A stretch of 44,365 bases of DNA from a bacterium (GTDB taxonomy: Bacteria; Cyanobacteriota; Sericytochromatia; S15B-MN24; VGJW01), in the NCBI GenBank assembly GCA_021781555.1, contig JAJXWQ010000021.1:1-44365 (forward strand), given 5' to 3'. Shown in pieces: positions 160-34,441 of this stretch (position 1 is its first letter; every line of letters begins with the position of its first letter). The notes beneath the pieces are model-generated. The model ran no database searches. It was not told where the DNA came from and saw nothing but the letters and a program-made list of their open reading frames with translations. The position numbers and the translations under genes were made by a program.

Positions 160-1539
160 ATGGCTGAACTCAAAGTCTACCTGCGTTCCTTTGGATGCCA
201 GATGAACCTCTCGGATGCCGAGCGGGCGCTGGGTCTGCTGGCGCGCCACGGCTACGAACCCACCGTTGACGAGGCCCAGGCCGACCTGCTGCTCGTCAAC
301 ACCTGCGCGATCCGCGAGAAGGCCGAGGACAAGCTCTTCTCGCTGCTGGGCGAGTGGCGTCAGATCAAGCGGCAGCGCCCCGGAGTGATCCTGGCCGTGA
401 TGGGCTGCGTGGCCCAGGAGATGAAAGACGAGATCCGCCGGCGCAATCCGGCGGTCGACGTGGTCGTGGGGACGCACAACTTCCACGAGCTCGGCGACCT
501 CATCGAGGAGGTCCGCGAGACGCGATCGCCCATCACGCGCATCGGTCGACTCCGGGACGCGCTTCCCGACGACCTGCCGACGATCCGTGACGGCAGGTAC
601 CACGCCTGGGTGCCCGTCATCTACGGTTGCTCGTACTTCTGCAGCTACTGCATCGTTCCGTTCACCCGAGGACCCTTCCAGAGCCGAGAGCCAGGGGCGA
701 TCGCGCGCGAGGTGACGGCCCTGCTGGCCGAGGGGTACCAGGAGATCACGCTCCTGGGCCAGACCGTGGATCGTTACGGGCGGGATCTGCCCGAGCCCAC
801 GACCCTGGCCGCCTTGCTGCGGCGACTGTCGCCGCTGCCGGGCCTGGCTCGCATTCGCTTCCTGACGAGCCATCCCGTGGACCTCGACCTGGAGCTGGTG
901 CAGACCGTGGCCGAGCTTCCGAACGTGATGGAATACTTCCACTTCCCCATCCAGAGCGGATCGGACCGGATGCTCGAGCAGATGAAACGTCAGCACACGG
1001 TGGCCCAGTACCTGGACAAGGTCGCGATGATCCGGCAGCACCTGCCGGGCGCCGCCATCAGCGGCGACCTGATCGTGGGCTTCCCCGGCGAGACCGAGGA
1101 GGATTTCGAGGACACGTTGCGGATCGTGCGCGAGGTCGAGTTCGACTCCAACAACACCGCAGCGTATTCGATCCGGCCCTGGACACCGGCGGGAAAGCGT
1201 GCCGACCAGGTCCCCGAGGAGGTCAAGCGCGATCGCCTGGCTCGCCTCAACGAGACCGTGGCCGAGACGAGCTTGCGCTGCAATCGCCGGCTGGTGGGGA
1301 GCTGGCAAGAAGTCCTCGTCGAGGGCCCCTCGAGCAAGCGCCCCGGGATCTGGACCGGACGGACGCGGGGCAACCGGGAGATCTTCTTCCCGGGCGACCC
1401 GAGCCTCGAAGGCCAGATCGTCCAGGTGAAGGTCGCCTCGGCGCGCCCGTTCACGCTCCGGGGCTTCGTCGCAGGCCGGCCGGAGAGCTGGCCGACGGAC
1501 CACGAGCCGCGGGTACCGCCTGTCGTCGACCTCCTGTAG
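160..1539 (+). CDS. miaB: tRNA-2-methylthio-N6-dimethylallyladenosine synthase MiaB
   Basis: 459 aa, the usual MiaB length. MiaB is a cytoplasmic radical SAM methylthiotransferase that adds a methylthio group to i6A37 in tRNAs reading UNN codons. The N-terminal UPF0004 domain has its three cluster cysteines at C13, C49 and C83. The radical SAM cluster motif is C157-x3-C161-x2-C164 in the segment YGCSYFCSYC. The C-terminal 65 or so residues match a TRAM RNA-binding domain. The start ATG is preceded by GAGG 4 nt upstream. MtaB and RimO are the main alternatives; the NTCAIREKAEDK segment and the overall length favour MiaB. It converges with the radical SAM/SPASM gene, with a dispersed repeat between the two stop codons. 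Confidence 0.95.
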   Translation: MAELKVYLRSFGCQMNLSDAERALGLLARHGYEPTVDEAQADLLLVNTCAIREKAEDKLFSLLGEWRQIKRQRPGVILAVMGCVAQEMKDEIRRRNPAVDVVVGTHNFHELGDLIEEVRETRSPITRIGRLRDALPDDLPTIRDGRYHAWVPVIYGCSYFCSYCIVPFTRGPFQSREPGAIAREVTALLAEGYQEITLLGQTVDRYGRDLPEPTTLAALLRRLSPLPGLARIRFLTSHPVDLDLELVQTVAELPNVMEYFHFPIQSGSDRMLEQMKRQHTVAQYLDKVAMIRQHLPGAAISGDLIVGFPGETEEDFEDTLRIVREVEFDSNNTAAYSIRPWTPAGKRADQVPEEVKRDRLARLNETVAETSLRCNRRLVGSWQEVLVEGPSSKRPGIWTGRTRGNREIFFPGDPSLEGQIVQVKVASARPFTLRGFVAGRPESWPTDHEPRVPPVVDLL

Positions 1540-1540
1540 C

Positions 1541-1654
1541 ATCGGGTCAGATCAAACCGGGAGCAAGCTCTTGCAGGGTGAACGGGTCCCTCTGCGCGGT
1601 CGCTGCGCTGCGCAACCGGGCCCCGTTTGACTCCCAGGGCTCGGGAGCACTCTA
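1541..1654 (+). repeat. dispersed three-arm palindromic repeat, locus 1
   Basis: A degenerate C module (1541-1566, containing ATCAAACCGGGAGC) is followed by one A-B unit (TGAACGGGTCCC at 1579-1590, CCCCGTTTGACTC at 1621-1633) and a shortened C end (GGGAGCACTCTAG, 1643-1655). It fills the gap between the convergent miaB and radical SAM genes. The terminal CTCTAG carries the TAG stop of the minus-strand gene. Confidence 0.85.
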
Positions 1655-2674
1655 GCGGACCCCGCGCGCCGCGGGGCAGGCGAGGTCGGGTGCACCTGTG
1701 GCCTCGCCACGGCCGTAGGTCGCCGCCGGACACCCTCCTCGGCAGCCGCTCCACGCCGCGCACGACGCGCACGCACCATGCGGGCGGTGCGCTCGGATCT
1801 CCTGCAGGAGCGGGTGCTTCTCCCACACTTCGATCAGGTCGTCCTGCCAGACATTGCCGAGCTTTTGCCCGATGCGACAGTACCGGATGGATCCATCCAC
1901 ATCCACCTCCACGAGCTCGGTGCGATCGCAATGACACATGTCGGTCGACAGGAACCACAGGCGCCGGGTGAGGCGGGGATAGAGGTTCGGCAGGTTGTGC
2001 GCGAGCGGATCGAAGAGCATGATCGGGCGCTTGTAGCGGATCGCGACGGCATGCTCGAGGAGTGCCACCAGGACCCGGTGGAAGTCGCCCTGGGTCTCGA
2101 GGCCTCCGGCCGCTTGGCCACGCGCGATCACGCGCTGAACCTTGATCCCCGCGACGCCCAGCTCGCGAGAGAGGTCGAGCAGGCGAGGGATCTCGTCGAG
2201 GTTGCGCCCTGGGATCATGACCGCGCTCAGGACGATGAGCATCCTGGCCTTGCGCAGCGCCGAGATGCCAGCCAGGGCCCGTTCCCAGGACTTCGGACCC
2301 CGGATCGCCTCGTGGGTCTGGCGCGTCGCCCCGTCGAGGCTCACCTGAACCATCTTCAGGCCCGCCTGTCGGAGCGTCCAGGCCTGTGGCAGGTCGATCC
2401 TTGTCGCATTAGTCACCAATCGCAACGTGAAATTATGTCGTCGTGCAAGTTTGATGACATCTGCAAGGTCCGGGCGGGTTGTGGGCTCGCCGCCGCCGAG
2501 CGTGAGGAAGCCCTCGCCCCGGTCGCCATGGTGCCGGCGCAGGCGGTCGAACGTGGTGAGGACCCGCTCGACGTCCTCGAGCGGCATCGGTCGGGCGCCA
2601 AGTCGGTCCTGATAGCAGTGCGAACAGGCGAGGTTGCAGACGCCCGTGACGTTGAGGTGGAAGCGCGGCTTCAA
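1652..2674 (-). CDS. radical SAM/SPASM-domain enzyme
   Basis: 340 aa if started at the TTG at 2674. That TTG overlaps the TGA stop of the preceding gene (TTGA), which indicates translational coupling. The same frame stays open upstream, but that stretch is antisense-type coding of the neighbour and has no better start. The radical SAM motif is C13-x3-C17-x2-C20, followed by GGEP (61-64). The C-terminal third carries SPASM-type cysteines at C247, C249, C266, C302, C305, C311, C315 and C333, the usual ligands for auxiliary iron-sulfur clusters. Families with this layout include peptide maturases (PqqE, AlbA) and sugar or cofactor enzymes. The substrate is unknown, and no precursor-peptide gene is evident nearby. 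The partner gene suggests nucleotide-sugar or glycoconjugate chemistry, which is inference. Confidence 0.85.
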   Translation of the reverse strand: MKPRFHLNVTGVCNLACSHCYQDRLGARPMPLEDVERVLTTFDRLRRHHGDRGEGFLTLGGGEPTTRPDLADVIKLARRHNFTLRLVTNATRIDLPQAWTLRQAGLKMVQVSLDGATRQTHEAIRGPKSWERALAGISALRKARMLIVLSAVMIPGRNLDEIPRLLDLSRELGVAGIKVQRVIARGQAAGGLETQGDFHRVLVALLEHAVAIRYKRPIMLFDPLAHNLPNLYPRLTRRLWFLSTDMCHCDRTELVEVDVDGSIRYCRIGQKLGNVWQDDLIEVWEKHPLLQEIRAHRPHGACASCAAWSGCRGGCPAATYGRGEATGAPDLACPAARGVR

Positions 2675-3738
2675 CGAGCGGACAGTGCTCCGTGCAAGGA
2701 CTGCGCCTTGCGCGCCAGCAGGATCTGCGCCTGCGCGACGTCGGCCTGGCTCTTGACCGGGATGAACCGATCGTCGCGGTCGATCTCGAGGGCGCCGAAG
2801 GCCAGGCGGGCCGAGAGGTCGCCCGCCAGGTGCTCGAACTGTATCACCGGGGTGTCGTCGACCCTCTTCTCCACGACGTACCACGGCAGATCGAAATCGC
2901 GATCGAGGGACCTGGCCTCGAAGCAATAGGTCGCCGTGTTGAAGACCGGAATCGCGTTCTGGTCGACCGTGGGCGGAAACGCAAAGCCCTCGACCAGCTG
3001 GAGCCGGCCATCGACCCGCGCCGGTGCCCCACCCCGATCGCCCGGCGCCTTGGCGGCGACCTCGGCTGTCATCTGGGTCCCGCTGGCAAGGTGGAATCCG
3101 ACGATGGCCATGTCGGGCGTCGCCCCGAGGTTGTCGACGTTCGAGAAGAGCAAGGTGGTCCCGCCGGCGCCGAGGAATTCCGCCAGCAGACCCGCCTGGC
3201 GCATTGCGGAGGGAAAATCTCCGTGCCCGGGCGCCGCATCGTTTTCCTGGCCCCTCGGGTCGACGAAGCGCGCCCCGCTGGCCAGCAGCCGGGGGTACCG
3301 GAATTGCTGGAACAGCCGGACCCGAGCGGGATCGATGCCGAAGTACCCGTGCTCGACCAGGTGGGCGGCCACCGCGTCGTGCGTGTGGAAGCTGGTCATG
3401 ATGTAGATTGGCAGGCGATCGCCACCGATCTCCCGGGCCCATTGGAGCTTCCACCCGAGAAAGCTTTGCCCCCCGAAGATGGGGTAGATCCCCTTGGGCC
3501 GGTCCCAGTTGAACCGCGTCGCCATGCCGCCCGCGAGGATCACGAGGCCGAGCTTCCCTTGTCGCAGGGCATCCGCGCCCCGGGCTTCGAGCTGGCGCCG
3601 CTCCTCGCCGCCCCGAGGCGGCAGCGTGGCGATGTCGCCGGGCGCGGGTGGCATGACCTCGGCCGTCAGGATGTTGTCCGCCGCCGACCAGGATCCGCTC
3701 CTGAACTTCTCTGCCAGGGTCTCGAACGCTGCGTCCAT
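2671..3738 (-). CDS. UTP-sugar-1-phosphate uridylyltransferase, eukaryotic-type UDPGP family
   Basis: 355 aa. Matches the UDPGP family (UTP-glucose-1-phosphate uridylyltransferase or UDP-GlcNAc pyrophosphorylase), which makes a UDP-sugar from UTP and a sugar 1-phosphate in the cytoplasm. Visible motifs are the nucleotide-binding loop GGMATR (70-75) with PK at 81-82, GHGD (171-174), NVDNLGA (200-206), FNT (266-268), EK (290-291), QFE (300-302) and RFIPVKS (324-330). These follow the order of eukaryotic-type UGPases rather than bacterial GalU. It is shorter than typical eukaryotic UGPases. It is first of a two-gene unit, sharing a TTGA stop/start overlap with the radical SAM gene. The specific sugar cannot be read from the sequence. 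Confidence 0.85.
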   Translation of the reverse strand: MDAAFETLAEKFRSGSWSAADNILTAEVMPPAPGDIATLPPRGGEERRQLEARGADALRQGKLGLVILAGGMATRFNWDRPKGIYPIFGGQSFLGWKLQWAREIGGDRLPIYIMTSFHTHDAVAAHLVEHGYFGIDPARVRLFQQFRYPRLLASGARFVDPRGQENDAAPGHGDFPSAMRQAGLLAEFLGAGGTTLLFSNVDNLGATPDMAIVGFHLASGTQMTAEVAAKAPGDRGGAPARVDGRLQLVEGFAFPPTVDQNAIPVFNTATYCFEARSLDRDFDLPWYVVEKRVDDTPVIQFEHLAGDLSARLAFGALEIDRDDRFIPVKSQADVAQAQILLARKAQSLHGALSAR

Positions 3739-3960: not shown

Positions 3961-4950
3961 ATGCCACAGCCCGGTTCTACCCCACTTCTGTCTTCGCAGC
4001 GCTGGCTGCTTGCGGGGCTCGCCTCGCTGGGGATTTTCGATGCGTCCTACCTGCTCATCGCGCATGCGATGGGGCAGTCCCTGGCTTGCCCGCAGACGGC
4101 CATCATCAATTGCGACGAAGTCGTCACCAGCCAGTACTCGGTGGTGATGGGTTTGCCGGTCGCCTTCTGGGGCCTGCTGGCATACCTGTCCGTGGTCGGA
4201 CTGTCGCTGTGGCCCATCGTGGGGAATCGGCTCGGCCGGGCAACGGACCCTACCCCCGGGACCCCCGACGGCAATCTCTTCTTGCTGCGGGGCCTGACGA
4301 CGGTGATGGCGACGATCAGCAGTTACTTGGTCTACCTGATGGTGGGGGTGATCCATGGCGTCTGCCTGTACTGCATCGGGTCGTTCTTGCTGTCGTTGAC
4401 CTTGTTCGGGATCGCGAACTTCTGGCCGGCGCTGACCAAGGCGAGCGGTCGGGTCGTCATCGGCGGACTCCTCGTGGGGGTTCTGGCCCTGGCGGCTCTC
4501 GGCGCTCCCCCCAACCAATCCGCCGCGGTTCCCGGCATTCCGGGCGGCTTCCCGCCCCAGCCGGGCAGCGGTGTCGTCCCTCAGAACGGCCTCGTGCCCC
4601 TCTCCGAGCCCGTCTATCCGATCCCGACGACCTCCGGGCCGGCCGAAATGGCCCTGGCCAGGTGGCTCGCGGAGAACGGCGCCAGGATGTATGGCGGTTA
4701 TCGCTGCCCGCACTGCTTCCGCGAGAAGGAGCTCTTTGGCCGGCAGGCCTTCCAGCTGATCGACTACGTCGAATGTGACCCGTCGACCTCTTCGGCCCGC
4801 GTCGCTCTCTGCAAGGCGGCAAATATCCGCGAATACCCCACCTGGGAGATCGGCGGCAAGTACTATCCAGGGGAGGCCAACCTCGAGGTCCTGGCCGCCC
4901 GATCCAACTACCCCGGCAGTCAGGCCTTTGCCCGGCACATCCTCCGCTAG
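3961..4950 (+). CDS. VKOR-thioredoxin fusion disulfide-forming oxidoreductase
   Basis: 329 aa. The N-terminal vitamin K epoxide reductase domain has several membrane segments and a periplasmic thioredoxin-like domain follows. The VKOR domain shows loop cysteines C43 and C51, a conserved Ser region with GLPVAFWG, and the quinone-facing CXXC C135-LY-C138. A Pro/Gly-rich linker (about 183-225) leads to a Trx-like domain with C249-PH-C252. The family oxidises secreted proteins: electrons pass from the Trx CXXC through the loop cysteines to CXXC and then to quinone, replacing DsbA/DsbB. Fused forms are well known in cyanobacteria. All six expected cysteines are present, so it should be active. Confidence 0.93.
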   Translation: MPQPGSTPLLSSQRWLLAGLASLGIFDASYLLIAHAMGQSLACPQTAIINCDEVVTSQYSVVMGLPVAFWGLLAYLSVVGLSLWPIVGNRLGRATDPTPGTPDGNLFLLRGLTTVMATISSYLVYLMVGVIHGVCLYCIGSFLLSLTLFGIANFWPALTKASGRVVIGGLLVGVLALAALGAPPNQSAAVPGIPGGFPPQPGSGVVPQNGLVPLSEPVYPIPTTSGPAEMALARWLAENGARMYGGYRCPHCFREKELFGRQAFQLIDYVECDPSTSSARVALCKAANIREYPTWEIGGKYYPGEANLEVLAARSNYPGSQAFARHILR

Positions 4951-5933: not shown

Positions 5934-6025
5934 GTGAACGGGTCCCTCTGCGCGGTCGCTACGCTGCGCAATCGGACCTCGTTTGGCTCCTTCGGCCCCG
6001 ATGGCTTCGAAGCGGGAGCGGTCTA
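5934..6025 (+). repeat. dispersed three-arm palindromic repeat, locus 2 (degenerate)
   Basis: GTGAACGGGTCCCTCTGCGC opens the A-B unit, whose B arm has drifted to CCTCGTTTGGCTC. The C module remains recognisable as TTCGAAGCGGGAGCGGTCTA. The final CTA (6023-6025) is the complement of the TAG stop of the minus-strand permease. It lies between two convergent genes. Confidence 0.75.
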
Positions 6026-8099: not shown

Positions 8100-9674
8100 C
8101 TAGCGGCCGGGTGGCTGCTGCTGTTTGGGGTTGGCCTTGTCTTTGTGCGTACGCTTGGCGCGCTGCCAGGGCGCCAGCTTGTATGCGCTTTCCGGATGGG
8201 TCTGCGCGGTCACAGGCGGGACCTGCTCAAGACGAGCGATCGGCGTCTCGGGACGCCGGGCTACCGGCGGTTCGGGACGAGCGATAGGCTGTTCGGGGCG
8301 CGCTACCGGCAGCTCGGGACGGCGGGCTACCGGCTGTTCGGGACGCGCTATCGGAGTTTCGGGACGGCGGGCTACCGGCTGTTCAAGACGAGCGATCGGC
8401 GTCTCGGGACGGCGGGCTACCGGTCGCTCGGGACGCGTGATCGGCAGCTCGGGACGGCGGGCTACGGGCGGTTCGGGACGGGCTATCGGAGTTTCGGGAC
8501 GGCGGGCTACCGGCTGTTCGGGACGCGCTACCGGCAGCTCGGGACGAGCGATAGGCTGTTCGGGACGCGCTACCGGCAGCTCGGGACGGCGGGCTACCGG
8601 CCGTTCGGGACGAGCGATAGGCTGTTCGGGACGGCGGGCTACCGGCTGTTCGGGGCGCCCGATAGGCTGCTCCGGCCGGGCGATGGGCCGTGGCGGTGGC
8701 ATGGCGGGATGCAGGTCGGGAGCGATTCTCTCGGCCTCGCGGCGTATCCTGGTGTCGATCTGCTGGCGGATCGCCCGGTTGCGCTCGATCGCCGGAGTGA
8801 CCGGGACCACGAGCGGCGAGCCGTGTTGCTGGCGATCTTCGATCCGGTGTCGGATGTCGGCGGGAAGCCGGGCGAGACGGTGACGCTGGCCGACCTCGAC
8901 CCGAGCGACGAGGTCCGGGGAGACGGTGACCGGCTCCACGATGCGGCTCTCGAGGTTCGTGATGTCGTTGATGACGTTCGTCGGGCCGAGATCGGGGATG
9001 GGGCTCAGGATCTCGGGCTCGATTTGCAGGGGCGCCGCGACGTCCTCGATGTCGACCGGGGAGACGAAGCCCCTCGACATCGAGATCGGCAAGATCGCGG
9101 AGTACGGTGCCAGCAAAGATGGCACGACCCGGTAGATCGGCACGAACATCCCGGCGACCAGCACCAGCGCGGGATAGACGTAAAGGCCGGCCTCCGGGTC
9201 AAAGAAGGAGAGCGGGACGAAGCGCCCCGTGACGGTCTGGTACGGAATCCAGACCCCGTCGAGGGGCAAGAAGCGACTGTCCTCCAGGACGGCGCTATCG
9301 AAACCTGGGGGAAATCCGACATAGCTTCCCGGTCCACCCGTGAAGATCGACGGCTCGAAGTCCGCGGAGAACTCGTCGGGCGCGATCGTCTGGAGCGAGG
9401 AGTCACCGTAGCTCCGGGGAATCGATGCGGGGATGCTGGTCAACAGGTCCGAGGCCAGCTGGACGGGCGGGGCCGAAGTCTCCTGCGGTGCGATGACGTT
9501 ACCGGGCGAAGGGGGACCGGAGCCTCCGGGGGACACCGCGGCCTGGTGCGCGTCGGGAACGGCCGGTGATACCGGTGATATGGCGCCCGGCTGCGATGCT
9601 GACGTTCCGCAAGCTGCCAGCGTCCCCGCCAGGCAAAAAGCGGCGACTCGAGAAAGGAGCGAGCGGCTGGACAC
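8100..9674 (-). CDS. lipoprotein with Pro-Arg-Glu tandem repeats
   Basis: 524 aa from the GTG at 9674, chosen because AGGAGG sits 5 nt upstream; an ATG 10 codons earlier has no such site. The N-terminus is a lipoprotein signal with lipobox L19-A20-A21-C22, so the protein should be membrane-anchored outside the cytoplasm. Residues about 70-230 form a hydrophobic, proline-containing region of unknown fold. Residues about 328-481 are an uninterrupted series of units built on PIARPEQPVARRPE, a stiff, strongly basic and regularly charged stretch. The C-terminus is lysine-rich (KDKANPKQQQ). Such segments often span the envelope or bind peptidoglycan or acidic polymers, which is inference. I do not recognise the family. 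Confidence 0.75.
   Translation of the reverse strand: MSSRSLLSRVAAFCLAGTLAACGTSASQPGAISPVSPAVPDAHQAAVSPGGSGPPSPGNVIAPQETSAPPVQLASDLLTSIPASIPRSYGDSSLQTIAPDEFSADFEPSIFTGGPGSYVGFPPGFDSAVLEDSRFLPLDGVWIPYQTVTGRFVPLSFFDPEAGLYVYPALVLVAGMFVPIYRVVPSLLAPYSAILPISMSRGFVSPVDIEDVAAPLQIEPEILSPIPDLGPTNVINDITNLESRIVEPVTVSPDLVARVEVGQRHRLARLPADIRHRIEDRQQHGSPLVVPVTPAIERNRAIRQQIDTRIRREAERIAPDLHPAMPPPRPIARPEQPIGRPEQPVARRPEQPIARPERPVARRPELPVARPEQPIARPELPVARPEQPVARRPETPIARPEPPVARRPELPITRPERPVARRPETPIARLEQPVARRPETPIARPEQPVARRPELPVARPEQPIARPEPPVARRPETPIARLEQVPPVTAQTHPESAYKLAPWQRAKRTHKDKANPKQQQPPGR
8230..8690. repeat. coding tandem repeat (VNTR-like)
   Basis: DNA encoding the RPE repeats of the lipoprotein. Units alternate between about 21 and 24 bp, built on CGGGACGNGC-type cores (GGGCTACCGGCTGTTCGGGA and variants). 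They form higher-order blocks of about 45 bp. The near-identity of non-adjacent blocks implies recent slippage or recombination, so copy number probably varies between strains. Confidence 0.85.
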
Positions 9675-9712
9675 GGCTTCCTCCTTGTGTCCACGGGACG
9701 ACACCCGGCGAT

Positions 9713-9956: not shown

Positions 9957-11120
9957 TCACGAGGAGCTTGGAATTCTCCGTGTGAAGTGGACAAGGGGTT
10001 GGCCAGACGTGCGCGGGGACCGCGAGACGCCGAGGAGGAGGCCCATCGAGAAGAGCGTGACGAGCAAGCTCGTGCCCCCGAAAGAGAGAAACGGCAGCGG
10101 CACGCCGGTCGTCGGGACCGAAGCTGTCACGACGGCAATGTTGAGAAAAGCCTGGAAGACGATGCCCGCCGTGATGCCGGTTGCCAGGAGCTTGGCATGC
10201 ACGCTCCGGGCCCTTTGAGCGATCGAGAAGCCACGCTGGGCCAGCACCACGAACAGAGCGACCACCAGGATCGTGCCGATGAGACCGAGCTCCTCGCCCA
10301 CGACGGCAAAGATGAAATCCGTGTGCTGGATCGGCAGATAGAAGAGTTTTTCCTTGCCCTGTCCCCAGCCCGTCCCGAAGATCCCGCCCGAGCCGATCGC
10401 CAGGAGCGACTGGACGAGCTGGAATCCAATGTCCTTGGAGTGCGCCCACGGGTTCACGAACGCGAGGAACCGGTCGCGCTGGTACGGCGTGTGCAGGACG
10501 TGGTAGGCCGCGGCTGCCAGCCCCACCCCACTGCCTCCGAGCAACCAGGTCAGCGGCATCCCGGCGCACAGGAACATCGCGAAGGCGATCCCGGCCAGGA
10601 TCAGCGTGGTGCCAAGGTCTGGCTGGAAGAGTACCAGGCCGAGGAGACCCAGGACCGGAAGGACGGTCTGGCGCAGATCCTTGCGCGTCCAGGGGCCCTC
10701 TGGTTTGCGCGCCAGGACGTCGGCCAGGTACATCACCATGCCGAGCTTGGCGAACTCCGAAGGCTGGAACGACATCGGCCCCAGGCGCAGCCAGCGGGCA
10801 GCTCCGAGCTGGGAGACGCCGAGATGCGGGACGTACGTGGCGGCCAGAAACGCGGCCGACAACCCGATCATGACCTTGGAAGCCACCCGGAGCCGCTCGG
10901 TGGCGATTCCCGCGCCGAGGAACATGGCGACGAACCCCAGGGTTCCCCAGGCCACCTGCTTCTTGAAGAAGAACAGACCGTCCGAAAGGCGGAATTCGGC
11001 CGACGGCGCCGAGGCCGACAGGACCATGAAGAAGCCGAAGACGGCCAGGATGATGGCCACGCTCGCGAGGGGACCGTCCCAGGCGAGCGCGCCGGCGTTT
11101 CGACGGGATACGGCGGCCAT
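9957..11120 (-). CDS. ftsW: septal peptidoglycan glycosyltransferase FtsW
   Basis: 387 aa, about ten membrane segments, SEDS family. FtsW polymerises lipid II at the septum with its partner class B PBP (the ftsI product in this cluster). Visible motifs are GAARWLRLGPMSFQPSEFAK, PDLGTT, a FAVVGEELGLIG segment and TGVPLPFLSFGGTS. RodA is the paralogue with the same fold; location at the end of the dcw block favours FtsW. It is separated from murD by 78 nt, a larger gap than elsewhere in the block. No murG, murC, ftsQ, ftsA or ftsZ follows. Confidence 0.93.
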   Translation of the reverse strand: MAAVSRRNAGALAWDGPLASVAIILAVFGFFMVLSASAPSAEFRLSDGLFFFKKQVAWGTLGFVAMFLGAGIATERLRVASKVMIGLSAAFLAATYVPHLGVSQLGAARWLRLGPMSFQPSEFAKLGMVMYLADVLARKPEGPWTRKDLRQTVLPVLGLLGLVLFQPDLGTTLILAGIAFAMFLCAGMPLTWLLGGSGVGLAAAAYHVLHTPYQRDRFLAFVNPWAHSKDIGFQLVQSLLAIGSGGIFGTGWGQGKEKLFYLPIQHTDFIFAVVGEELGLIGTILVVALFVVLAQRGFSIAQRARSVHAKLLATGITAGIVFQAFLNIAVVTASVPTTGVPLPFLSFGGTSLLVTLFSMGLLLGVSRSPRTSGQPLVHFTRRIPSSS

Positions 11121-11198
11121 AGGTTTCGTTTAGCTTAACCTGGCCCCGGTACCGAGGTTATGACGTTTCTCACACTTTTCGGGCCCGGTCGCCGGAAG

Positions 11199-12599
11199 TC
11201 AGGGTGAAACTTCCTCCTGGATCGCCCCGACCGCCGGTCGCGCTACCTCGCCGGGTTCGAGTGCCATGACCGCCTTCTTGAAGAGGGAGCCCCGCTCTTC
11301 GTAGTTCTTGAACATGTCGAAGCTCGTGCAGGCCGGACTGAACAGCACGACGCCGCCAGGTCGAGCGAGTGTGCGAGCCATCGCCACGGCGCCCTCGAGG
11401 GAATCGGTGAGGGTCAGGGCCTCGTACCCGGCAGCGCGCAGGACCCGCTCGAAGTACGGGCCGGCTTCGCCCAGCAGGACCACGTGCTCGACCCGGCGCG
11501 ATATCGCCTCGATGAGCGGCGCGATCGCCCCCCCCTTGTCGCGTCCACCTGCGATGAGCACCAGCGGTTCGGCAAAGGAAGCGATGGCCTTGACGGTGCT
11601 GTCGTAGTTCGTGCCCTTGCTGTCGTTGTACCACTGCACGCCGTTTAGGGTCCGCACGGGCTCGATGCGGTGCTCGACCCCGCCGAAGCCGGCGATCGCC
11701 CTCGCGATGACCTCTGCCGCGACGCCGAGTGCGAGCGCGATGGCGGTGGCCGCCAGGCAGTTCTCCAGGTTATGGTCGCCCCGTAGCAGGATGTCGGAAA
11801 CCGGCATGACGCGCAGGGTTGATCCGGCCTTACGCCAGACGATCCAGCCCCCCTCGACGATGACCCCCGTGATATCCTGCCGGCGGCTGAAGAGGAGCAC
11901 CTGTCCGGCAAGTTCGCCCCGGATACTCGAGACCGCGGGATCGTCGGCATTGAGGACGGCCCAGTCGGAAGCGGTCTGGCGAGCAAAGAGCTGCTTCTTG
12001 AGTTCGAAGTAGACCTCCCGCGATCCGTGCCGATTCAGATGATCGTCGGTGAAGTTGAGCCAGGCCCCGACCTTGGGCCGGAAATCGACGACCGTTTCCA
12101 GCTGGAAGCTCGAGACCTCCGCCACGAGGTAATCGCAAGGCTGCTCGGCCAGGGTGACCAGGGGAATCCCGATGTTGCCGCCGAGAGGGGCGTCAAGGCC
12201 GGCCTCGGCGAGGATACGGGCCACGAGCGTCGTCGTCGTGGTCTTCCCGTTGGTACCCGTGATGGCCACGATCGGCGAGGCTGCCAGGCGGTACGCCAGC
12301 TCGATCTCACCGATGAGCTCCACGCCATCCGCCTCGGCGGCCTGCAGGAGCGGCAAGGCCCGAGGCACGCCCGGCGATACGACGATGAGATCCGCGGCCG
12401 CCACGGATCTGGCGTGGCCGCCCGCCTCGAGCTCCACGCCCGCGGGAAGGGAGCCCTGGACTTCCTGCAGTTCCTCGGCCGGCCTCGTATCCGATGCCAT
12501 CACCCGGGCTCCGTGCCGGGCCAGTGCCTCGGCGACCGCCAGGCCGGTCCGCGCCAGACCGATGATGGCCACCGTCCGGTCACTGAAATCTGCAGTCAC
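11199..12599 (-). CDS. murD: UDP-N-acetylmuramoyl-L-alanine:D-glutamate ligase MurD
   Basis: 466 aa. Cytoplasmic ATP-dependent ligase adding D-Glu to UDP-MurNAc-L-Ala. An N-terminal Rossmann-like UDP-binding region begins VAIIGLARTGLA (10-21). The ATP loop GTNGKTTTT starts at 115. The central domain has NFTDDHLNRHG, and the C-terminal domain has WYNDSKGTNYDST and the late LFSPACTSFDMF motif specific to MurD. It starts 12 nt after mraY, in the order expected for an Escherichia- or Bacillus-type dcw operon. Confidence 0.95.
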   Translation of the reverse strand: MTADFSDRTVAIIGLARTGLAVAEALARHGARVMASDTRPAEELQEVQGSLPAGVELEAGGHARSVAAADLIVVSPGVPRALPLLQAAEADGVELIGEIELAYRLAASPIVAITGTNGKTTTTTLVARILAEAGLDAPLGGNIGIPLVTLAEQPCDYLVAEVSSFQLETVVDFRPKVGAWLNFTDDHLNRHGSREVYFELKKQLFARQTASDWAVLNADDPAVSSIRGELAGQVLLFSRRQDITGVIVEGGWIVWRKAGSTLRVMPVSDILLRGDHNLENCLAATAIALALGVAAEVIARAIAGFGGVEHRIEPVRTLNGVQWYNDSKGTNYDSTVKAIASFAEPLVLIAGGRDKGGAIAPLIEAISRRVEHVVLLGEAGPYFERVLRAAGYEALTLTDSLEGAVAMARTLARPGGVVLFSPACTSFDMFKNYEERGSLFKKAVMALEPGEVARPAVGAIQEEVSP

Positions 12600-12611
12600 A
12601 GTCGCTTCCTT

Positions 12612-13595
12612 CTATAGCCAGGCGGCAGCGATGACGGCCGCCAGCAATCCAACGAGTCCAAACCGAGCCACCACCTTGGTCTCCTTGAGCCCCCCGAGCT
12701 CGAAGTGGTGGTGCAGCGGGCTCATGCGGAAGATTCGCTTGCCGCCGGTTGCCTTGAAGTAGGACACCTGAATCATCACCGACAGGGCCTCGCCCACGAA
12801 GACGAGGCCGACCGGCAGCAGGTACAGCTCGAGGTGGCCGATCGCAGCGATCGCGACCATGGCCGCGCCGAGGCCCAGGGATCCGGTATCCCCCATGAAT
12901 ACCTGCGCCGGGTGGGCATTGACCCACAAGAAGCCCACGCAGCCCCCGGCGAAGGCCAGGGGCAGGGCCAGGAGCCCGGGGTGCAGCGCCGGATCGCTCC
13001 AGCGCAGCGTGAGTGCCGCGAGCCCTGCCAGGGCGATCGCCGAGGTCGTGGCTGCAAGGCCGTCCAGCCCATCCGTGAGGTTCACGGCATTGGTAGCGGC
13101 AACCATCACCAGGACGAGGAAGGGCCAGTAGGCCCACCCGAGATCGAGCCGCGTGTGGGCGACGGGCACCCACACCCAGGGCGCGTGCTGGAAGCTTGCC
13201 AGGGCTCCGGCAAAGACGCTCCCCAGGCCCACCTGAGCGAGGAGCTTCTGGCGAGCGGAAAGCCCCTTGTTGTGCTTCTTCAAGATGGACAGGAAGTCGT
13301 CGATGAACCCGACCAGCGCGAAGCCTGCCACCACCACGAGCGCCGCGATGAGCTCAGGGGCAGCCGGAATGAACGGCACGCAGGCGAGGATCGACGCCAG
13401 CAGGAAGAACAGCCCGCCCATCGATGGCGTGCCGGCCTTGGCAAGGTGCGATTGCGGGCCCTCCTGCCGGATGACCTGTCGGGCCTTCAAACGCGTCAGC
13501 AAGGCCACTGCCGGCCGCGCCATGGCCACGGTCAGGACCAGCGCCACCACGAAGGCGGGGGACAGCGGGACGAAGGCGAACAGGTGATCTTTCAC
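12612..13595 (-). CDS. mraY: phospho-N-acetylmuramoyl-pentapeptide transferase MraY
   Basis: 327 aa with about ten membrane helices. It transfers phospho-MurNAc-pentapeptide from UDP to undecaprenyl phosphate to give lipid I. Diagnostic motifs are GTPSMGG near the N-terminus, GFIDDFLSI (metal-binding aspartates), NAVNLTDGLDGLA, FMGDTGSLGLG and MSPLHHHFE. It begins 19 nt after murF and precedes murD by 12 nt. Confidence 0.96.
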   Translation of the reverse strand: MKDHLFAFVPLSPAFVVALVLTVAMARPAVALLTRLKARQVIRQEGPQSHLAKAGTPSMGGLFFLLASILACVPFIPAAPELIAALVVVAGFALVGFIDDFLSILKKHNKGLSARQKLLAQVGLGSVFAGALASFQHAPWVWVPVAHTRLDLGWAYWPFLVLVMVAATNAVNLTDGLDGLAATTSAIALAGLAALTLRWSDPALHPGLLALPLAFAGGCVGFLWVNAHPAQVFMGDTGSLGLGAAMVAIAAIGHLELYLLPVGLVFVGEALSVMIQVSYFKATGGKRIFRMSPLHHHFELGGLKETKVVARFGLVGLLAAVIAAAWL

Positions 13596-13614
13596 GGGAC
13601 ACTTACCAGAGGAC

Positions 13615-15006
13615 TCATTCGAGCCATTCTGACAGACCGGCCACGATCTCTTCCAGCCGTCCGGAGCGAGAGCCCTTCACCAGGAGCCGGTCCCCCGATC
13701 GCACGAAGGAGCCGAGCACCCGGACCGCCTCCGCGTTATCACGGCAGGAAGCGGATGGAACTCGAGTCGTGTCGGCGATCCAGGCCGCGACGTCACCGAC
13801 CGTCACCACGAAGTCGACCGGCAGTCCGTCGAGCGCCCGGCCGAGGGCGCGATGCGCCCCCTCGGCGTGATCCCCGAGTTCGGCCATCTCACCGAAGACC
13901 ACGATACGACGGCCCGGGCTGGGGAGGGTGCAGAAGACCTCGAGGGAAGCTCGGGCGGACTCGGGATTGGCGTTGTAGCTTTCGTCGAGGATCTCGACAT
14001 CGCCGATCGCCACCACGCGGCTGCGCCCTCCGACCGCGGGCGGAGCCAGCACGAAGTCGTCCGGCAGCACGATGCCGAGCTGGCAGGCCACGCCGATGGC
14101 CGCCAAGGAGTTGGCCACATGGTGGCTGCCCGGAAGGGAAAGTCGCACCAGGGCCTCGCCCGCAGGCCATGCGGGCCCCTTGCGCCAGGCGGCCCGGAAA
14201 ACCCAAAAATCGCCGTCGGGAACCGGGGTCGAGGCGGCCCAGACGTCGGGATCCACGCCTTGCCCGGCAACCGTCCTGCCGCCGCTGGCCGCATACCAGC
14301 ACACGGCCGGATGGTCCCGACCGATCGAGCGACAAAACGGATCGTCACCATTGAGCACGACCCGGCCCTGGGGGATGGCCCGGACGAGCTCGCCCTTGGC
14401 CTGGGCAATGGCCTCCTGGCTGCCGAGCCTCCCGATGTGGGCCGTGCCGATATTCGTGATGACTCCGATATCAGGGCCTGCCACCTCCGCCAGATAGGCG
14501 ATCTCGCCCGCTCCCCGCATCCCGAACTCGAGAACGGCGCAGCGCGTGCCAGCCCTCAAATCCAGGAGCGTGCGCGGCACGCCGATCTCGTTGTTGAAAT
14601 TGGCATGGCTCTTGGCCGTGGGAAGGAAGCGCCCGACCAGGTCTGCGATGGCTTCCTTCGTGCTGGTCTTGCCCGACGAGCCGGTGACCGCGACGACCGT
14701 CAAACCGAGCTGGTCACGGTGGTGACGAGCGAGCTTTCCGTAGGCGCCAAGCGTCCGATCCACCTGGATGATGGGCGTGCCCGACGGCGCGCCCTCGGGC
14801 CGCTCTGCGAGGACGGCTGCGGCCCCGCGGGATACGGCATCCGAGATGAAGTCGTGGCCATCGAAGCGCTCGCCGTGCAGGGCCATGTACAGGGAACCCG
14901 GACCGATCGTGCGGGTATCGGTCGAGACCGCAAACAGCGGGAGTTCCGGATCCCCGGCCAGGACGGTCCCCCCGGTGGCCCCTGCAACCTCGCCGAGGGT
15001 GAACAT
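13615..15006 (-). CDS. murF: UDP-N-acetylmuramoyl-tripeptide:D-alanyl-D-alanine ligase MurF
   Basis: 463 aa from the ATG at 15006, which begins MFTLGEVAGATGG and lies 17 nt after the murE stop. The open frame continues upstream through murE, but that part is not murF. MurF adds D-Ala-D-Ala to the UDP-MurNAc tripeptide. The ATP loop is TGSSGKTS (108-115), the NEIGVP motif follows, and ESYNANPESARASL marks the central-to-C-terminal transition typical of MurF. It is part of the minus-strand dcw operon. Confidence 0.95.
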   Translation of the reverse strand: MFTLGEVAGATGGTVLAGDPELPLFAVSTDTRTIGPGSLYMALHGERFDGHDFISDAVSRGAAAVLAERPEGAPSGTPIIQVDRTLGAYGKLARHHRDQLGLTVVAVTGSSGKTSTKEAIADLVGRFLPTAKSHANFNNEIGVPRTLLDLRAGTRCAVLEFGMRGAGEIAYLAEVAGPDIGVITNIGTAHIGRLGSQEAIAQAKGELVRAIPQGRVVLNGDDPFCRSIGRDHPAVCWYAASGGRTVAGQGVDPDVWAASTPVPDGDFWVFRAAWRKGPAWPAGEALVRLSLPGSHHVANSLAAIGVACQLGIVLPDDFVLAPPAVGGRSRVVAIGDVEILDESYNANPESARASLEVFCTLPSPGRRIVVFGEMAELGDHAEGAHRALGRALDGLPVDFVVTVGDVAAWIADTTRVPSASCRDNAEAVRVLGSFVRSGDRLLVKGSRSGRLEEIVAGLSEWLE

Positions 15007-15023
15007 GGGTGCGGCTCGATCGC

Positions 15024-16511
15024 TCACCGCGCGGTGTCCAGCTCGCGCAAGGCCTGGCGGGCGACTTCCCGATCGTCGAAGGCGATGCGTCTGCCTTTGA
15101 TGATCTGGTACGGTTCGTGCCCCTTGCCGGCCAGGACGACCGTATCTCCAGGTCGAGCCTGGGCGATCGCCCACCGGATGGCCTCGGCGCGGTCGACGAT
15201 CGTCTCGTGCGGGACGACCATTCCCTGGCGAACCTCGGCGATGATGGCCTCGGGATCCTCGGTCCGAGGGTTGTCGCTCGTGACGATCGCCAGGTCGGCA
15301 AGTTCGCATGCGATGCGCCCCATCAAGGGTCGCTTGGTGCGGTCGCGATCGCCCCCGCAGCCAAAAACCACGATGACGCGCTGACTCGTGATGCCGCGGA
15401 TGGTCTCGAGGACGTTCTGCAGGCCGTCCGGGGTGTGGGCATAGTCGACCATCACGGCGAAGTCTGCATCGGGGGCGCTGACGCGCTCGACCCGGCCCGG
15501 AACCCCCGGGACCTTGGCGAAGGCATCCAGGGCGATCGCGGGATCCAGGTCCAGTGCCATGGTTGCCCCCAACGCCGCCAGGGCGTTGTAGAGGTTGAAC
15601 CGACCTGGAAGCTGCAAGGTGAAGCTGAAAGTCCCGCCAGGAGTCTGGAGCACTGCCCGCGAACCAGCTGGTCCCATCTCGATCTCGCGCAGCGAGAGCG
15701 CCGCCGGGTGGTTCAGCCCGTAGCTCAGGATCCGGGTCACGCCCGCAGCGCGTGCCGCGGCCTCCATCTGCTGGGAGCGCGGATCGTCGGCGTTGATCAC
15801 GGCCGCTCCTCCCTCCCGGAGCGACGAGAAGAGCTTGGCCTTGGCGGCCGCGTAGGCTTCCTCGGTGCCATGGTAATCAAGGTGGTCGCGTGTGAGATTG
15901 GTGAACACCCCGACCGCAAATCCGATGTGCGCCGCCCGATGCTGGTCGAGGGCGTGCGAGGATACTTCCATCGCGACCTGCCGGACTCCGGCCTCGGCCA
16001 TCATGGCCAGGATCTGCTGCAGTTCGGGGGCCTGGGGCGTGGTGAAGCCCAGATCGACGGTCGTCTGGAGGCCGCCGGACCGGTACCGGACTCCGAGGGT
16101 ACCGACCACGCCAGCTGGATGTCCCGAGGCGAGCATGGCTGCCTCGACCAGGTGGGTGGTCGTGGTCTTGCCGTTGGTCCCGGTAACGCCGACGACGTCG
16201 AGAGTGCGTCCGGGAAAGCCCCGAAATGCCGCGGCCGCCCAGGCGAGGGCCTCCCGCGTATCCTCGGCCAGGAGGGCGGGTCCGCCCGCGGCTGCCTCGG
16301 AGCGGCTCACGATCGCGGCGAGCGCTCCCTGGTCGAAGGCGGCCGGCACGAACTGGTGCCCGTCGATATGGGTGCCCCCGACGGCGACGAAGAGGTGCCC
16401 CGGACGTACTGTGCGCGAGTCGTAGCTGATACCGGCGATCTCGGCATCGAGGTCCAGCGCTTCGGCGGAACTCGCCGGCCGGTAACGCGCCGCTACATCA
16501 GCCAGTCGCAT
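15024..16511 (-). CDS. murE: UDP-MurNAc-L-Ala-D-Glu:meso-diaminopimelate ligase MurE
   Basis: 495 aa. It adds the third residue of the peptidoglycan stem peptide. The ATP loop is GTNGKTTTT from 111. The carbamylated-lysine region and MDYAHTPDGL are present. The substrate-selecting motif is DNPR (413-416), which in known MurE enzymes specifies meso-DAP rather than lysine, so the wall is of the DAP type. It starts 117 nt after the ftsI stop codon, the gap holding a degenerate dispersed repeat that separates it from the first three genes. Confidence 0.95.
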   Translation of the reverse strand: MRLADVAARYRPASSAEALDLDAEIAGISYDSRTVRPGHLFVAVGGTHIDGHQFVPAAFDQGALAAIVSRSEAAAGGPALLAEDTREALAWAAAAFRGFPGRTLDVVGVTGTNGKTTTTHLVEAAMLASGHPAGVVGTLGVRYRSGGLQTTVDLGFTTPQAPELQQILAMMAEAGVRQVAMEVSSHALDQHRAAHIGFAVGVFTNLTRDHLDYHGTEEAYAAAKAKLFSSLREGGAAVINADDPRSQQMEAAARAAGVTRILSYGLNHPAALSLREIEMGPAGSRAVLQTPGGTFSFTLQLPGRFNLYNALAALGATMALDLDPAIALDAFAKVPGVPGRVERVSAPDADFAVMVDYAHTPDGLQNVLETIRGITSQRVIVVFGCGGDRDRTKRPLMGRIACELADLAIVTSDNPRTEDPEAIIAEVRQGMVVPHETIVDRAEAIRWAIAQARPGDTVVLAGKGHEPYQIIKGRRIAFDDREVARQALRELDTAR

Positions 16512-16539
16512 GACAACTCCTCTCTGTTCCTTTCCCCGT

Positions 16540-16631
16540 TTGCAAGGGGTCCCTCTGCACGGTTGCTCCGCTGCTCCACCGGGCCCTGTTCGAGTCCTCG
16601 GGCTCGATCCTGTCGAGGCGAAGCTGCGCTA
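16540..16631 (+). repeat. dispersed three-arm palindromic repeat, locus 4 (degenerate)
   Basis: TTGCAAGGGGTCCCTCTGCA opens the A-B unit; the B arm is GGGCCCTGTTCGAGTC and the C module is CTCGGGCTCGATCCTGTCGA followed by GGCGAAGCTGCGCTAG. The terminal CTA (16629-16631) is the complement of the ftsI TAG stop. It lies inside the dcw operon between murE and ftsI. Confidence 0.75.
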
Positions 16632-18407
16632 GACAGAGGGCGAGGCTTCGAGGGTCGGGCTGGGCTCGGAACCGAGGATCCGGAGCGTGGCTGCCGCCAC
16701 GTCGCGAAAGATGGGCGCGGTGGTTTCCGAGGCAAAGTGGGCCTTCTGGGGTGCGTCAAGCGTGGCGAGGATGACGATGCGTGGCTTCTCGGCAGGCACG
16801 AAGCCCAGGAAGGTCGACACGACATCGGGCGAGTAGCCTCGGCCGTCTGGCCAGGCCTTCTGGGCAGTGCCCGTCTTGCCGGCCACATGATACCCCGGCA
16901 CCCGCGCCGCCGTCCCGGTCCCGCCGGGGTCCGTCACCCCCTCGAGCATCGGCAGAAGCTCCTGGGTGACTCGCGTCGAGACGACCCGGCGCATGGGCGC
17001 CGGCGGAAAGGTCTGCACCACCTTGCCGCTTGCGTCCAGGATCCGCTCGATCAGGCGCGGCCGCACGGCGTAGCCCCCGTTGGCAAGGGCGCACTCGGCG
17101 GTTGCCAGTTGCAAGGCTGTCACGGAGATGCCCTGGCCATAGGAGATCGTGGCGTGGCGAATCGGTCGCCAAGGAAGCGGCGGGAGAATGCCGCGGGACT
17201 CTCCGCCCAGCCCGCTTTGGGTCGTCCGGCCAAACCCGAATTTGATGAAGAACGCCCGCTGGACGGAATCCGGCATGCTCCGGCCGATCTGCGATGCTCC
17301 GACGTTGCTCGAAACCTTGAGGATCTGGGCGGGGATGAGATGGCGGATGCCCGGGCCGGGATCGTGATCCCCGATCGACCGATCTCCGATCTGGAGCCGG
17401 GGCGGGCAGGTGAAGACGGTCTGCGGAGTGATGGTCCCGACCTGCAGGGCCGCAGCGATCGTGAAGGGCTTCATCACCGATCCGGGCTCGAAGACCTTGC
17501 TGATCCCCCAGTTCGTGATGACCGAAGGCGAGGCGAGATCCGGGTGATTCGGGTCGTAGGTGGGCAGGGTTGCAAAGGCCAGGACGTCGCCATTCCAGGG
17601 ATTCATCACGATGACGACGCCGTGCGCGGCATCGAAGGTTTGAATGGCCTCCGCCAGCCGGCTCTCGGCCACGTGCTGGATCGCCTGGTCGATCGTCAGC
17701 TGCACGGCCCCGCTCGAGGTCTCGACCGCATCGAGGGGATTCTCGTGAGCATCGCGAAGGATCTCGTTGCCCTTGGCATCGACCTGGATCGCCAGCTGCC
17801 GGGGCGGTCCCATGATCAGCGCGTTGAAGTCGTGCTCGATTCCGGCCAGGCCCCGGTTATCCACGCCCACGAATCCGATGAGGGTCCCCGCAGTCTCGTC
17901 CTTGGGGTAGACCCGCTTGGTCTCCTCGAGCAGGCCGATGCCCGGGATCTTCAGTGCCCGCACCTGTTTTGCGGTCGCACGGTCTTCCTCGCGAGCCAGC
18001 CAGGCCCAGTGATGGCCCGCCAGCGCCTGCTCGAGCTTCGTCTCGTCCACGCCGAGCAGCGGGGCGAGCCGGGCTGCGGCTTGCGCTGGATCCCCCTTGA
18101 AATCTTGCGGCTGCACGTAGACCGACCACGCTTCCTCGGAAACCGCGAGCTGGGCTCCATTTCGATCCAGGATGTCCTTGCGCAGGCTCGCCAGGTTGAG
18201 AATCCTCGTCCGCTGCTGGCGGGCCACGGCGGAGAGGTGCGGCGAGTCCCAGATCTGCAGGTAAGCCAGGCGTGCGATCAACCCGAGCGCGGCCAGGAGG
18301 ATCCATCCGCGCAAGAGGCGGATGCGCGACCGGATGCGCCGCTCGGCCGGGTCCCGAGGCTTGCGAGCACGCCCCGAAACACCGGGGCGATCGGTCGAGA
18401 CCCGCAT
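16629..18407 (-). CDS. ftsI: septal class B penicillin-binding protein (FtsI/PBP3)
   Basis: 592 aa. A basic cytoplasmic tail (1-30), one membrane helix (about 31-50), a dimerisation/pedestal domain and a transpeptidase domain. Active-site motifs are S310-V-M-K313 (SxxK), S366-S-N368 (SxN) and K511-T-G (KTG). It crosslinks septal peptidoglycan with FtsW. There is no C-terminal PASTA domain, unlike many Gram-positive homologues. It starts 3 nt after the ftsL-like gene. Its TAG stop lies in the end of a dispersed repeat. Confidence 0.94.
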   Translation of the reverse strand: MRVSTDRPGVSGRARKPRDPAERRIRSRIRLLRGWILLAALGLIARLAYLQIWDSPHLSAVARQQRTRILNLASLRKDILDRNGAQLAVSEEAWSVYVQPQDFKGDPAQAAARLAPLLGVDETKLEQALAGHHWAWLAREEDRATAKQVRALKIPGIGLLEETKRVYPKDETAGTLIGFVGVDNRGLAGIEHDFNALIMGPPRQLAIQVDAKGNEILRDAHENPLDAVETSSGAVQLTIDQAIQHVAESRLAEAIQTFDAAHGVVIVMNPWNGDVLAFATLPTYDPNHPDLASPSVITNWGISKVFEPGSVMKPFTIAAALQVGTITPQTVFTCPPRLQIGDRSIGDHDPGPGIRHLIPAQILKVSSNVGASQIGRSMPDSVQRAFFIKFGFGRTTQSGLGGESRGILPPLPWRPIRHATISYGQGISVTALQLATAECALANGGYAVRPRLIERILDASGKVVQTFPPAPMRRVVSTRVTQELLPMLEGVTDPGGTGTAARVPGYHVAGKTGTAQKAWPDGRGYSPDVVSTFLGFVPAEKPRIVILATLDAPQKAHFASETTAPIFRDVAAATLRILGSEPSPTLEASPSV

Positions 18408-18410
18408 CCT

Positions 18411-18872
18411 CTAGTAAGCGGCGGCGGCGCCGAGGGACAGTGGCGATAGCGGCCGCGGTGCCTGCCCCGGAGCGGGCGACGGAAGGTAGGCGACGATGCC
18501 GGGGGACACCAGTCCCAGCTGGCTAGCGCGGTCCTGGATGCGATCGAGGGCACGGAGGCTGGAGAGCTCGGCACCCAGACGCACGTTGGCCTCGGACTCG
18601 GTCTGCAGCACCCGGCGCTCCCGCTCGAGGTGGCCCTCGTACGCGACCGTCTGGGTGTACAGGACCACCTGCGCCCCGAACAGGAAAGCCACGATGAACC
18701 CGGGTTGCCTGACGAGCTCACCCAGGCGGGAGGCCACGAGCCCGGGGCTCAGTCTCTTCGCGGTGCGCAGGCGCCTTCGCCCGCCGGATCGTACCGCGGG
18801 CCGATCGATCCGGACTGCGCGCTGGCGCGGCTCGATGGACCGGGGGAGGGTGGCTGTCGATCGGGTGGCCAT
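18411..18872 (-). CDS. ftsL: FtsL-like division protein
   Basis: 153 aa from the ATG at 18872, 2 nt after the rsmH stop; the frame is open further upstream but that overlaps rsmH. A basic cytoplasmic N-terminus of about 65 residues is followed by one membrane helix (about 73-92, PGFIVAFLFGAQVVLYTQTV). A heptad-like coiled coil follows (HLERERRVLQTESEANVRLG) and then a Pro-rich tail. This topology and its position between rsmH and ftsI are those of FtsL, which links FtsB/FtsQ to the FtsWI synthase. Sequence conservation in the family is low, so the call rests on context and topology. Confidence 0.8.
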   Translation of the reverse strand: MATRSTATLPRSIEPRQRAVRIDRPAVRSGGRRRLRTAKRLSPGLVASRLGELVRQPGFIVAFLFGAQVVLYTQTVAYEGHLERERRVLQTESEANVRLGAELSSLRALDRIQDRASQLGLVSPGIVAYLPSPAPGQAPRPLSPLSLGAAAAY

Positions 18873-18874
18873 GA

Positions 18875-20417: not shown

Positions 20418-20666
20418 TTTTGCAGCTTGAACGGGTCCCTCTGCGCGGTCGCTTCGCTGCGCAACCGGTCCCCGTTTGACTGCCGCTTGAACGGGTCCCT
20501 CTGCGCGGTCGCTTCGCTGCGCAACCGGTCCCCGTTTGACTGCCGCTTGAACGGGTCCCTCTGCGCGGTCGCTTCGCTGCGCAACCGGTCCCCGTTTGAC
20601 TGCAGCTTGAACGGGTCCCTCTGCGCGGTCGCTTCGCTGCGCAACCGGTCCCCGTTTGACTGCAGG
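20418..20666 (+). repeat. dispersed repeat locus 5: four tandem 60-bp A-B units
   Basis: Units start at 20427, 20487, 20547 and 20607 with an exact 60-bp period and almost no divergence. Each reads TTGAACGGGTCCCTCTGCGC, then GGTCGCTTCGCTGCGCAACC, then GGTCCCCGTTTGACTGCNGC. The leading TTTTGCAG (20418-20425) matches the A-side flank of other loci. It lies between the divergent rnpB and the small membrane-protein gene. All three forward frames stay open because 60 is divisible by three; I do not regard this as coding. Confidence 0.95.
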
Positions 20667-34282: not shown

Positions 34283-34441
34283 AGAGCCGCTTCGCTGCGC
34301 AACCGGTCCCCGTTTGACTGCAGCTTGAACGGGTCCCTCTGCGCGGTCGCTTCGCTGCGCAACCGGTCCCCGTTTGACTGCAGCTTGAACGGGTCCCTCT
34401 GCGCGGTCGCTTCGCTGCGCAACCGGTCCCCGTTTGACTCC
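34281..34441 (+). repeat. dispersed repeat locus 7: tandem 60-bp array
   Basis: One 5'-deleted unit (34281-34324, retaining GCTTCGCTGCGCAACCGG) and two further units starting at 34325 and 34385, in exact 60-bp register. The array begins at the stop codon of the cNMP-binding protein and ends 36 bp before the Sco-like gene. Same orientation as the array at 36464-36666. Confidence 0.93.

Follow-up and report, generated by a model that had tools for sequence, protein, structure and literature searches.

Eukaryotic UDP-glucose and UDP-GlcNAc pyrophosphorylases (UGP and UAP; PF01704) and radical SAM enzymes with a full SPASM domain are the closest described systems to the two adjacent genes considered here. 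The full-SPASM enzymes named in PMC10452713 include AlbA, PqqE, anSME, MftC, SuiB, and CteB, and according to the same source the eight SPASM cysteines of other SPASM enzymes bind two auxiliary clusters. In the limited literature collection searched, no paper joined a SPASM radical SAM enzyme with a UDP-glucose pyrophosphorylase or a nucleotide sugar, and none brought together a SPASM radical SAM enzyme, a glycosyltransferase, a precursor peptide, and a UDP-sugar. AlbA and the five enzymes named with it act on peptides or proteins. The substrate of AhbD, another full-SPASM enzyme, is a tetrapyrrole, which makes a non-peptide substrate possible for the radical SAM protein described below. BlsE takes cytosylglucuronate as its substrate, and DesII takes a TDP-sugar.

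The UDPGP-family enzyme of the window (the whole stretch of DNA analysed, 44,365 nucleotides) shares the fold and the nucleotide-binding, GHGD, NxDNLGA, FNT, and PVK motifs of eukaryotic UGP and UAP, but it is short (355 aa) and bacterial, and its sugar specificity is a prediction. The radical SAM/SPASM protein encoded beside it (rSAM) has the CX3CX2C motif, the SPASM domain, and the eight C-terminal cysteines of the full-SPASM families (MftC, ACGX-system, GeoRSP, NirJ/AhbD, PqqE), but it scores far below the curated cutoffs of MftC, ACGX-system, and the others.

Organization of the UDPGP/rSAM locus

Both genes lie on the reverse strand. The UDPGP gene (2671..3738, -; 355 aa) starts with ATG at 3738 and ends with TGA at 2673-2671, while the rSAM gene (1652..2674, -; 340 aa) starts with TTG at 2674-2672 and its stop codon ends at 1652. 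The two share a 4-nt TTGA stop/start overlap (2671..2674, -), for which a preliminary description of this DNA had given exactly the right coordinates. The pair is bordered on its 3' side by a convergent miaB (160..1539, +; TIGR01574 above cutoff) and on its 5' side by a divergent gene for a VKOR-family protein (3961..4950, +; PF07884), which makes it a two-gene unit in the window genome (G000). A terminator scan of the locus found none (1.0 expected by chance), and a promoter scan gave a single promoter-like match, within the rSAM gene (0.2 expected).

Between the stop codons of rSAM and miaB lies a copy of a palindrome-like intergenic repeat (1591..1615, +). This 60-nt repeat also occurs at window positions 5947-5971, 20421-20665, 34288-34439, and 36486-36664, in places as tandem arrays with a period of 60, and its core was matched 448 times across the 3.8 Mb genome (at most two mismatches), the reversed control 0 times; one unit folds with a z of -2.3 against shuffles. 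Farther along, the window carries a dcw-type cluster (9957-19813, -) with FtsW-type, MurD-type, second Mur ligase, Glycos_transf_4 (MraY-type), penicillin-binding transpeptidase, and MraW/RsmH genes. A protein at 8100-9704 (-) has by eye a lipoprotein-like start and a long Arg/Pro repeat region encoded by 45- and 66-nt tandem repeats, and matched neither Pfam nor NCBIfam.

The TTG start of rSAM, as proposed in the preliminary description, falls at the same alignment position in all three orthologues, i.e., in the window genome, in a genus-mate species (G026), and in a genome of another genus of the same family (G013). Upstream of it, no in-frame ATG, GTG, or TTG occurs before a stop in G013 (8 codons) or G026 (60 codons). 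G000 has its closest one 70 codons away, deep inside the UDPGP gene; translation of rSAM thus very probably does begin at this TTG. It would be a weak start, with a GGAG 13 nt upstream, a poor Shine-Dalgarno spacing by sequence.

The overlap belongs to the class of 1- and 4-nt stop/start pairs, from which translational coupling is predicted here by sequence alone. According to PMC6728339, close to 15% of gene pairs in most prokaryote groups overlap co-directionally, whatever the length of the overlap, and under 10% do so in Cyanobacteria. Since overlaps are this common in most groups, an overlap alone is weak evidence. As the present pair illustrates, a shared pathway is not indicated by a stop/start overlap in itself. 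In E. coli, complex subunits are encoded by 30.4% of the pairs spaced at -8 to +10 nt and by 6.8% of those more than 20 nt apart (PMC10666635); the overlap therefore raises, without establishing, the case for a functional link between UDPGP and rSAM. These spacing data lift the prior for such a link, and the distribution of the two genes, given below, argues against an obligate one.

Conservation of the pair

The neighbourhood survey confirmed that the pairing extends beyond the window genome, to three genomes of two genera in one family. In the genus-mate G026 (L009/L041), the pair sits, as in G000, between a divergent VKOR gene and a convergent miaB, with the same TTGA overlap (L041, 3193-3196); its rSAM is 78-80% and its UDPGP 85% identical to those of G000. 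In G013, UDPGP and rSAM are again next to each other on one strand and rSAM starts with TTG, but the overlap is absent and a 75-nt gap takes its place. The neighbours also differ there: a co-directional gene for a C39-type peptidase precedes the pair, and 21 nt after rSAM comes an uncharacterised co-directional gene that is cut by the contig end; with co-directional neighbours on both sides, the unit in G013 may exceed two genes.

The 75-nt gap of G013 contains a 28-nt palindrome-like repeat, whose pattern has one other exact match in that genome, at the rSAM stop, and six more copies with two mismatches. Two near-identical 28-nt direct repeats (L029, 11048-11075 and 12152-12179) thus bracket the rSAM gene, whose reading frame ends within the second. 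Probably a short repeat inserted in G013 and removed the overlap there, or else the overlap arose in the other genus. Published reporters showed reinitiation to be nearly abolished at 20 nt (PMC10666635), and with its wider gap the G013 pair should therefore not be translationally coupled. The weak TTG start with its distant GGAG, together with a gap beyond reinitiation distance in G013, leaves the proposed stoichiometric production of the two proteins unsupported.

The rSAM gene is under purifying selection, with dN 0.123 and dS 0.710 between G000 and G026; its dN/dS (∼0.17) is much like those of UDPGP (0.17) and MiaB (0.16). With this ratio, and with all 11 cluster cysteines (3 + 8) invariant in the three orthologues, rSAM looks like a working gene.

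The UDPGP enzyme

The preliminary assignment of the upstream gene to the UDPGP family holds, as does that of its partner to the SPASM-type radical SAM proteins, since PF01704, Radical_SAM, and SPASM are all above cutoff. PF01704 matched UDPGP with 128.1 bits (E 4.7e-37, cutoff 22), the match stopping at profile position 341 of 413, and with 355 aa the protein is shorter than the matching PDB chains (405-641 aa). The GGxxT/R..PK, GHGD, NxDN, FNT, and PVK motifs, which we take to be catalytic in this family, are invariant in 13 of 13 aligned sequences (the class alignment holds 13 of the 15 class sequences found). Within the nucleotide-binding motif LAGGMATRFNWDRPK (residues 68-82; 3493..3537, -), the invariant positions are L68, G70-F76, P81, and K82. 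The structure model of the single protein is confident (pLDDT 90.9), and Foldseek matched it to UAP/UGP structures with TMq 0.73-0.84 among the 50 matches listed. By sequence, the best PDB matches were UGP at 1e-20 and UAP at 5e-19, and UDP-sugar pyrophosphorylases followed at 3e-9 to 5e-8.

We then looked at the five PF00483 loci of G000. Two were above cutoff, one as RmlA-long and one as GlmU; the remaining three, below cutoff, were nearest to mannose-1-phosphate guanylyltransferase (two) and glucose-1-phosphate cytidylyltransferase (one). None reached the GalU cutoff of 326.8 bits: four scored 57.9, 110.4, 62.7, and 27.2, and for the GlmU locus GalU was absent among the 25 families listed. 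As no PF00483 locus of G000 is GalU, the cell probably has no UDP-glucose pyrophosphorylase other than UDPGP, a specificity to which the motifs and the absence of GalU point. In all, the enzyme looks ordinary.

The radical SAM/SPASM protein

Radical_SAM (PF04055) matched rSAM with 94 bits (E 1.5e-26, cutoff 29.5) and SPASM (PF13186) with 24.0 bits (E 4.8e-5, cutoff 21.5). The radical SAM cluster ligands lie in a CX3CX2C motif at residues 13-20 (2615..2638, -), which reads CNLACSHC in G000 and G026 and CNLACTHC in G013. The full SPASM cysteine pattern (C247, C249, C266, C302, C305, C311, C315, and C333; 1676..1936, -) is present in all three orthologues, and these eight cysteines would suffice for two auxiliary [4Fe-4S] clusters. 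Among the best 25 of 64 matches to named NCBIfam SPASM families, rSAM reached no cutoff, the top one being MftC with 118.9 bits against 265; likewise, the G013 orthologue reached none among its best 25 of 74, with ACGX on top at 121.7 bits against 400.

The class also holds a class-wide radical SAM group (group B) that is 29-33% identical to the UDPGP-linked rSAM over most of its length. The full SPASM cysteine set, which rSAM has, is missing in five of the six group B members, and both G000 and G013 carry a group B protein beside the UDPGP-linked one. In a tree of 26 rows, which left aside characterised SPASM enzymes and included group B and the separate f5 lineage described below, the UDPGP-linked rSAM stood apart from both as a separate, long-branched clade with 100/100 support. 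A recent duplication from group B was accordingly rejected as the origin of rSAM. In five of six group B loci (L088, L089, L095, L100, and L101) the radical SAM gene is followed by a conserved protein; the one that was scanned, from L089, resembles TIGR03123/MfnF, of the H4MPT or methanofuran pathway, below cutoff. The UDPGP-linked rSAM is a family-restricted SPASM lineage that lies below the cutoffs of all the named families listed.

Distribution of the two genes

UDPGP was found in 15 of 18 class genomes, including all nine with a completeness of 90% or more and a contamination of 5% or less. A six-frame search found the rSAM lineage in three of the 18, at E under 1e-200, with the next best match at 1.1e-50. 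Twelve of the 15 UDPGP-bearing genomes showed none, three of these 12 being under 90% complete, and it was not found by six-frame search in G001, a 98% complete genome of the same family. These counts, together with the probable role of UDPGP as the sole UDP-glucose pyrophosphorylase, characterise rSAM as an addition specific to this lineage, placed after a housekeeping gene, and for the same reasons the proposal that the two enzymes share a pathway is not supported.

Across the phylum, four of 292 genomes had a match at E ≤ 1e-40; the fourth (G010) was a 33% identical group B relative, located on a different contig from UDPGP. A contig scan of GTDB r220 by short peptide patterns, which picks up close relatives only, turned up the genus-mate together with a single relative of 33% identity, from a Phycisphaerae MAG. 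In the phylum of that MAG, 0 of 294 genomes had rSAM at 1e-35, in a search run without an internal positive control. UDPGP occurs there in 162 of 199 genomes, and no rSAM was found beside it by tblastn (1e-3, seven rSAM queries) in 31 UDPGP loci of that phylum (30 out of this survey plus L049), a minority of those present, with flanks of up to about 1.5 kb and the UDPGP query matching in 31/31. The claims of absence rest on the six-frame searches, which covered the two phyla, and on tblastn of these 31 loci. Plasmid records gave 211 matches to rSAM, all under 60% identity, with the 12 listed at 26.7-29.2%, and none of the 52 stretches of viral sequence that matched a pattern was a relative.

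Around UDPGP itself, miaB lies within a few kb in G001 and in three of five other-family order-mates (G018, G038, and G041). In another genome of the same family (G047 C227; L031), UDPGP is followed by a gene that looks by eye like a short-chain dehydrogenase, and after this comes a radical SAM gene of another kind, whose product carries an HMPTM-type zinc ribbon.

Substrate class and rival explanations

The preliminary description had suggested that the pair makes a modified UDP-sugar or a glycosylated, radical-modified peptide; both are possible but are not supported. The first would follow if rSAM oxidised, decarboxylated, or epimerised a UDP-sugar, or a glycan made from one, in a shared sugar pathway, which we consider unlikely. 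The adjacency in two genera, with the overlap in one, speaks for such a pathway. So does BlsE, a cytosylglucuronate decarboxylase and the top match of the rSAM core in both sequence and structure: it was the best PDB phmmer match (E 1.2e-11), and it headed the VIA-align list with Z 15.8, close to the nucleotide-substrate enzymes viperin (15.7) and MoaA (15.4). However, the BlsE sequence match is confined to residues 38-175 of the core, and the peptide maturases SuiB (15.5) and SkfB (15.2) come within Z 1 of it. With Z values of 15.2-15.8 across all five, structure cannot choose between a sugar, nucleotide, or peptide substrate. The rSAM model (mean pLDDT 60.3) is usable for the core only; residues 243-340, which hold the SPASM region, are under 50. 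Likewise, the prokaryotic viperin (pVip) profile matched rSAM with 60.1 bits over residues 7-126 only, and rSAM has a SPASM domain in addition. The pair has no further sugar gene within its borders, and the 12 UDPGP-bearing class genomes in which the rSAM lineage was not found count against this pathway as well. The stronger form, in which rSAM founds a SPASM subfamily acting on the UDP-sugar of its co-translated partner, or on a derived glycan, appears quite improbable to us; were it true, a nucleotide sugar would be the substrate of a full-SPASM enzyme, and the known SPASM chemistry would be widened.

A RiPP-type maturation, in which a peptide would first be modified by rSAM and the UDP-sugar would then serve to glycosylate it, seems very unlikely, even though many of the best-scoring SPASM families, all below cutoff, are peptide maturases and another SPASM lineage of the class (f5) has an adjoining candidate precursor. 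The short precursor peptide that had been expected near rSAM homologues was not found: no small ORF (at least 15 aa, wholly inside an intergenic space) was common to the three loci, a result that also fits a sugar substrate. The pair is without a glycosyltransferase. Moreover, rSAM begins only 12 residues before its first cluster cysteine, which leaves no room for an N-terminal RRE-like domain, and the f5 precursor-like family has no match in G000, G026, or G013. Only slightly more probable than this, and still unlikely, is that the rSAM gene came by chance to follow a housekeeping gene, whose transcript it shares, and that their overlap is devoid of regulatory meaning. The frequency of overlaps in most groups (PMC6728339), the search that did not find rSAM in the nearly complete G001, and the short direct repeats around rSAM in G013, where the overlap is gone, agree with a neutral adjacency; against it, both genera with rSAM retain the adjacency, and in one of them both species retain the overlap.

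The f5 lineage deserves a description of its own. In four genomes of family f5 (L090-L093), an rSAM/SPASM gene at ∼1400-2540 follows an upstream ORF at ∼830-1437, and the f5 rSAM has the full cysteine set in the three checked. The upstream protein, of 171-187 aa, ends in a C-terminal GC (PGC in the three that are readable), and by a profile built from those same four it occurs in four of 18 class genomes, always beside the f5 rSAM. We regard it as a candidate for an unusually long RiPP precursor.

Proposed role of the pair

Overall, we favour, with moderate confidence, a co-expressed two-gene operon in which a housekeeping UDPGP precedes a lineage-specific full-SPASM rSAM that oxidises a substrate from outside the pair, probably a peptidic one. 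The class-wide UDPGP would most likely serve as UDP-glucose pyrophosphorylase (UTP + glucose-1-phosphate → UDP-glucose + PPi), and the rSAM gene would have been placed behind it in one family. Ribosomes finishing UDPGP may reinitiate at the weak TTG, so that rSAM would be co-expressed, probably at a lower level. The enzyme would then abstract a substrate hydrogen by means of the 5'-deoxyadenosyl radical and pass the electron to its two auxiliary Fe-S clusters, with a net oxidative modification. Its target would probably be the side chain of a peptide or protein whose gene lies elsewhere, in keeping with AlbA and the other peptide- or protein-modifying full-SPASM enzymes named above. The loci themselves show how the genes are laid out and overlap, how they are conserved and distributed, which cysteines rSAM has, and that it is under purifying selection; we infer what the enzymes do, that the genes are co-transcribed, the reinitiation, how strongly each gene is expressed, the kind of substrate, and that no pathway is shared. 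The intergenic search that yielded no peptide, the tetrapyrrole substrate of AhbD, the possibly larger unit of G013, and a UDP-glucose specificity read from motifs and absent GalU weigh against the proposal. Two further observations tell against this operon of otherwise independent enzymes, as both hint at some functional tie: the adjacency in both rSAM genera despite differing neighbours, and the overlap kept in two species at dS 0.5-0.7. In essence, a probable housekeeping gene has gained a lineage-specific rSAM neighbour in one bacterial family, and that housekeeping neighbour is the main genomic clue to rSAM.
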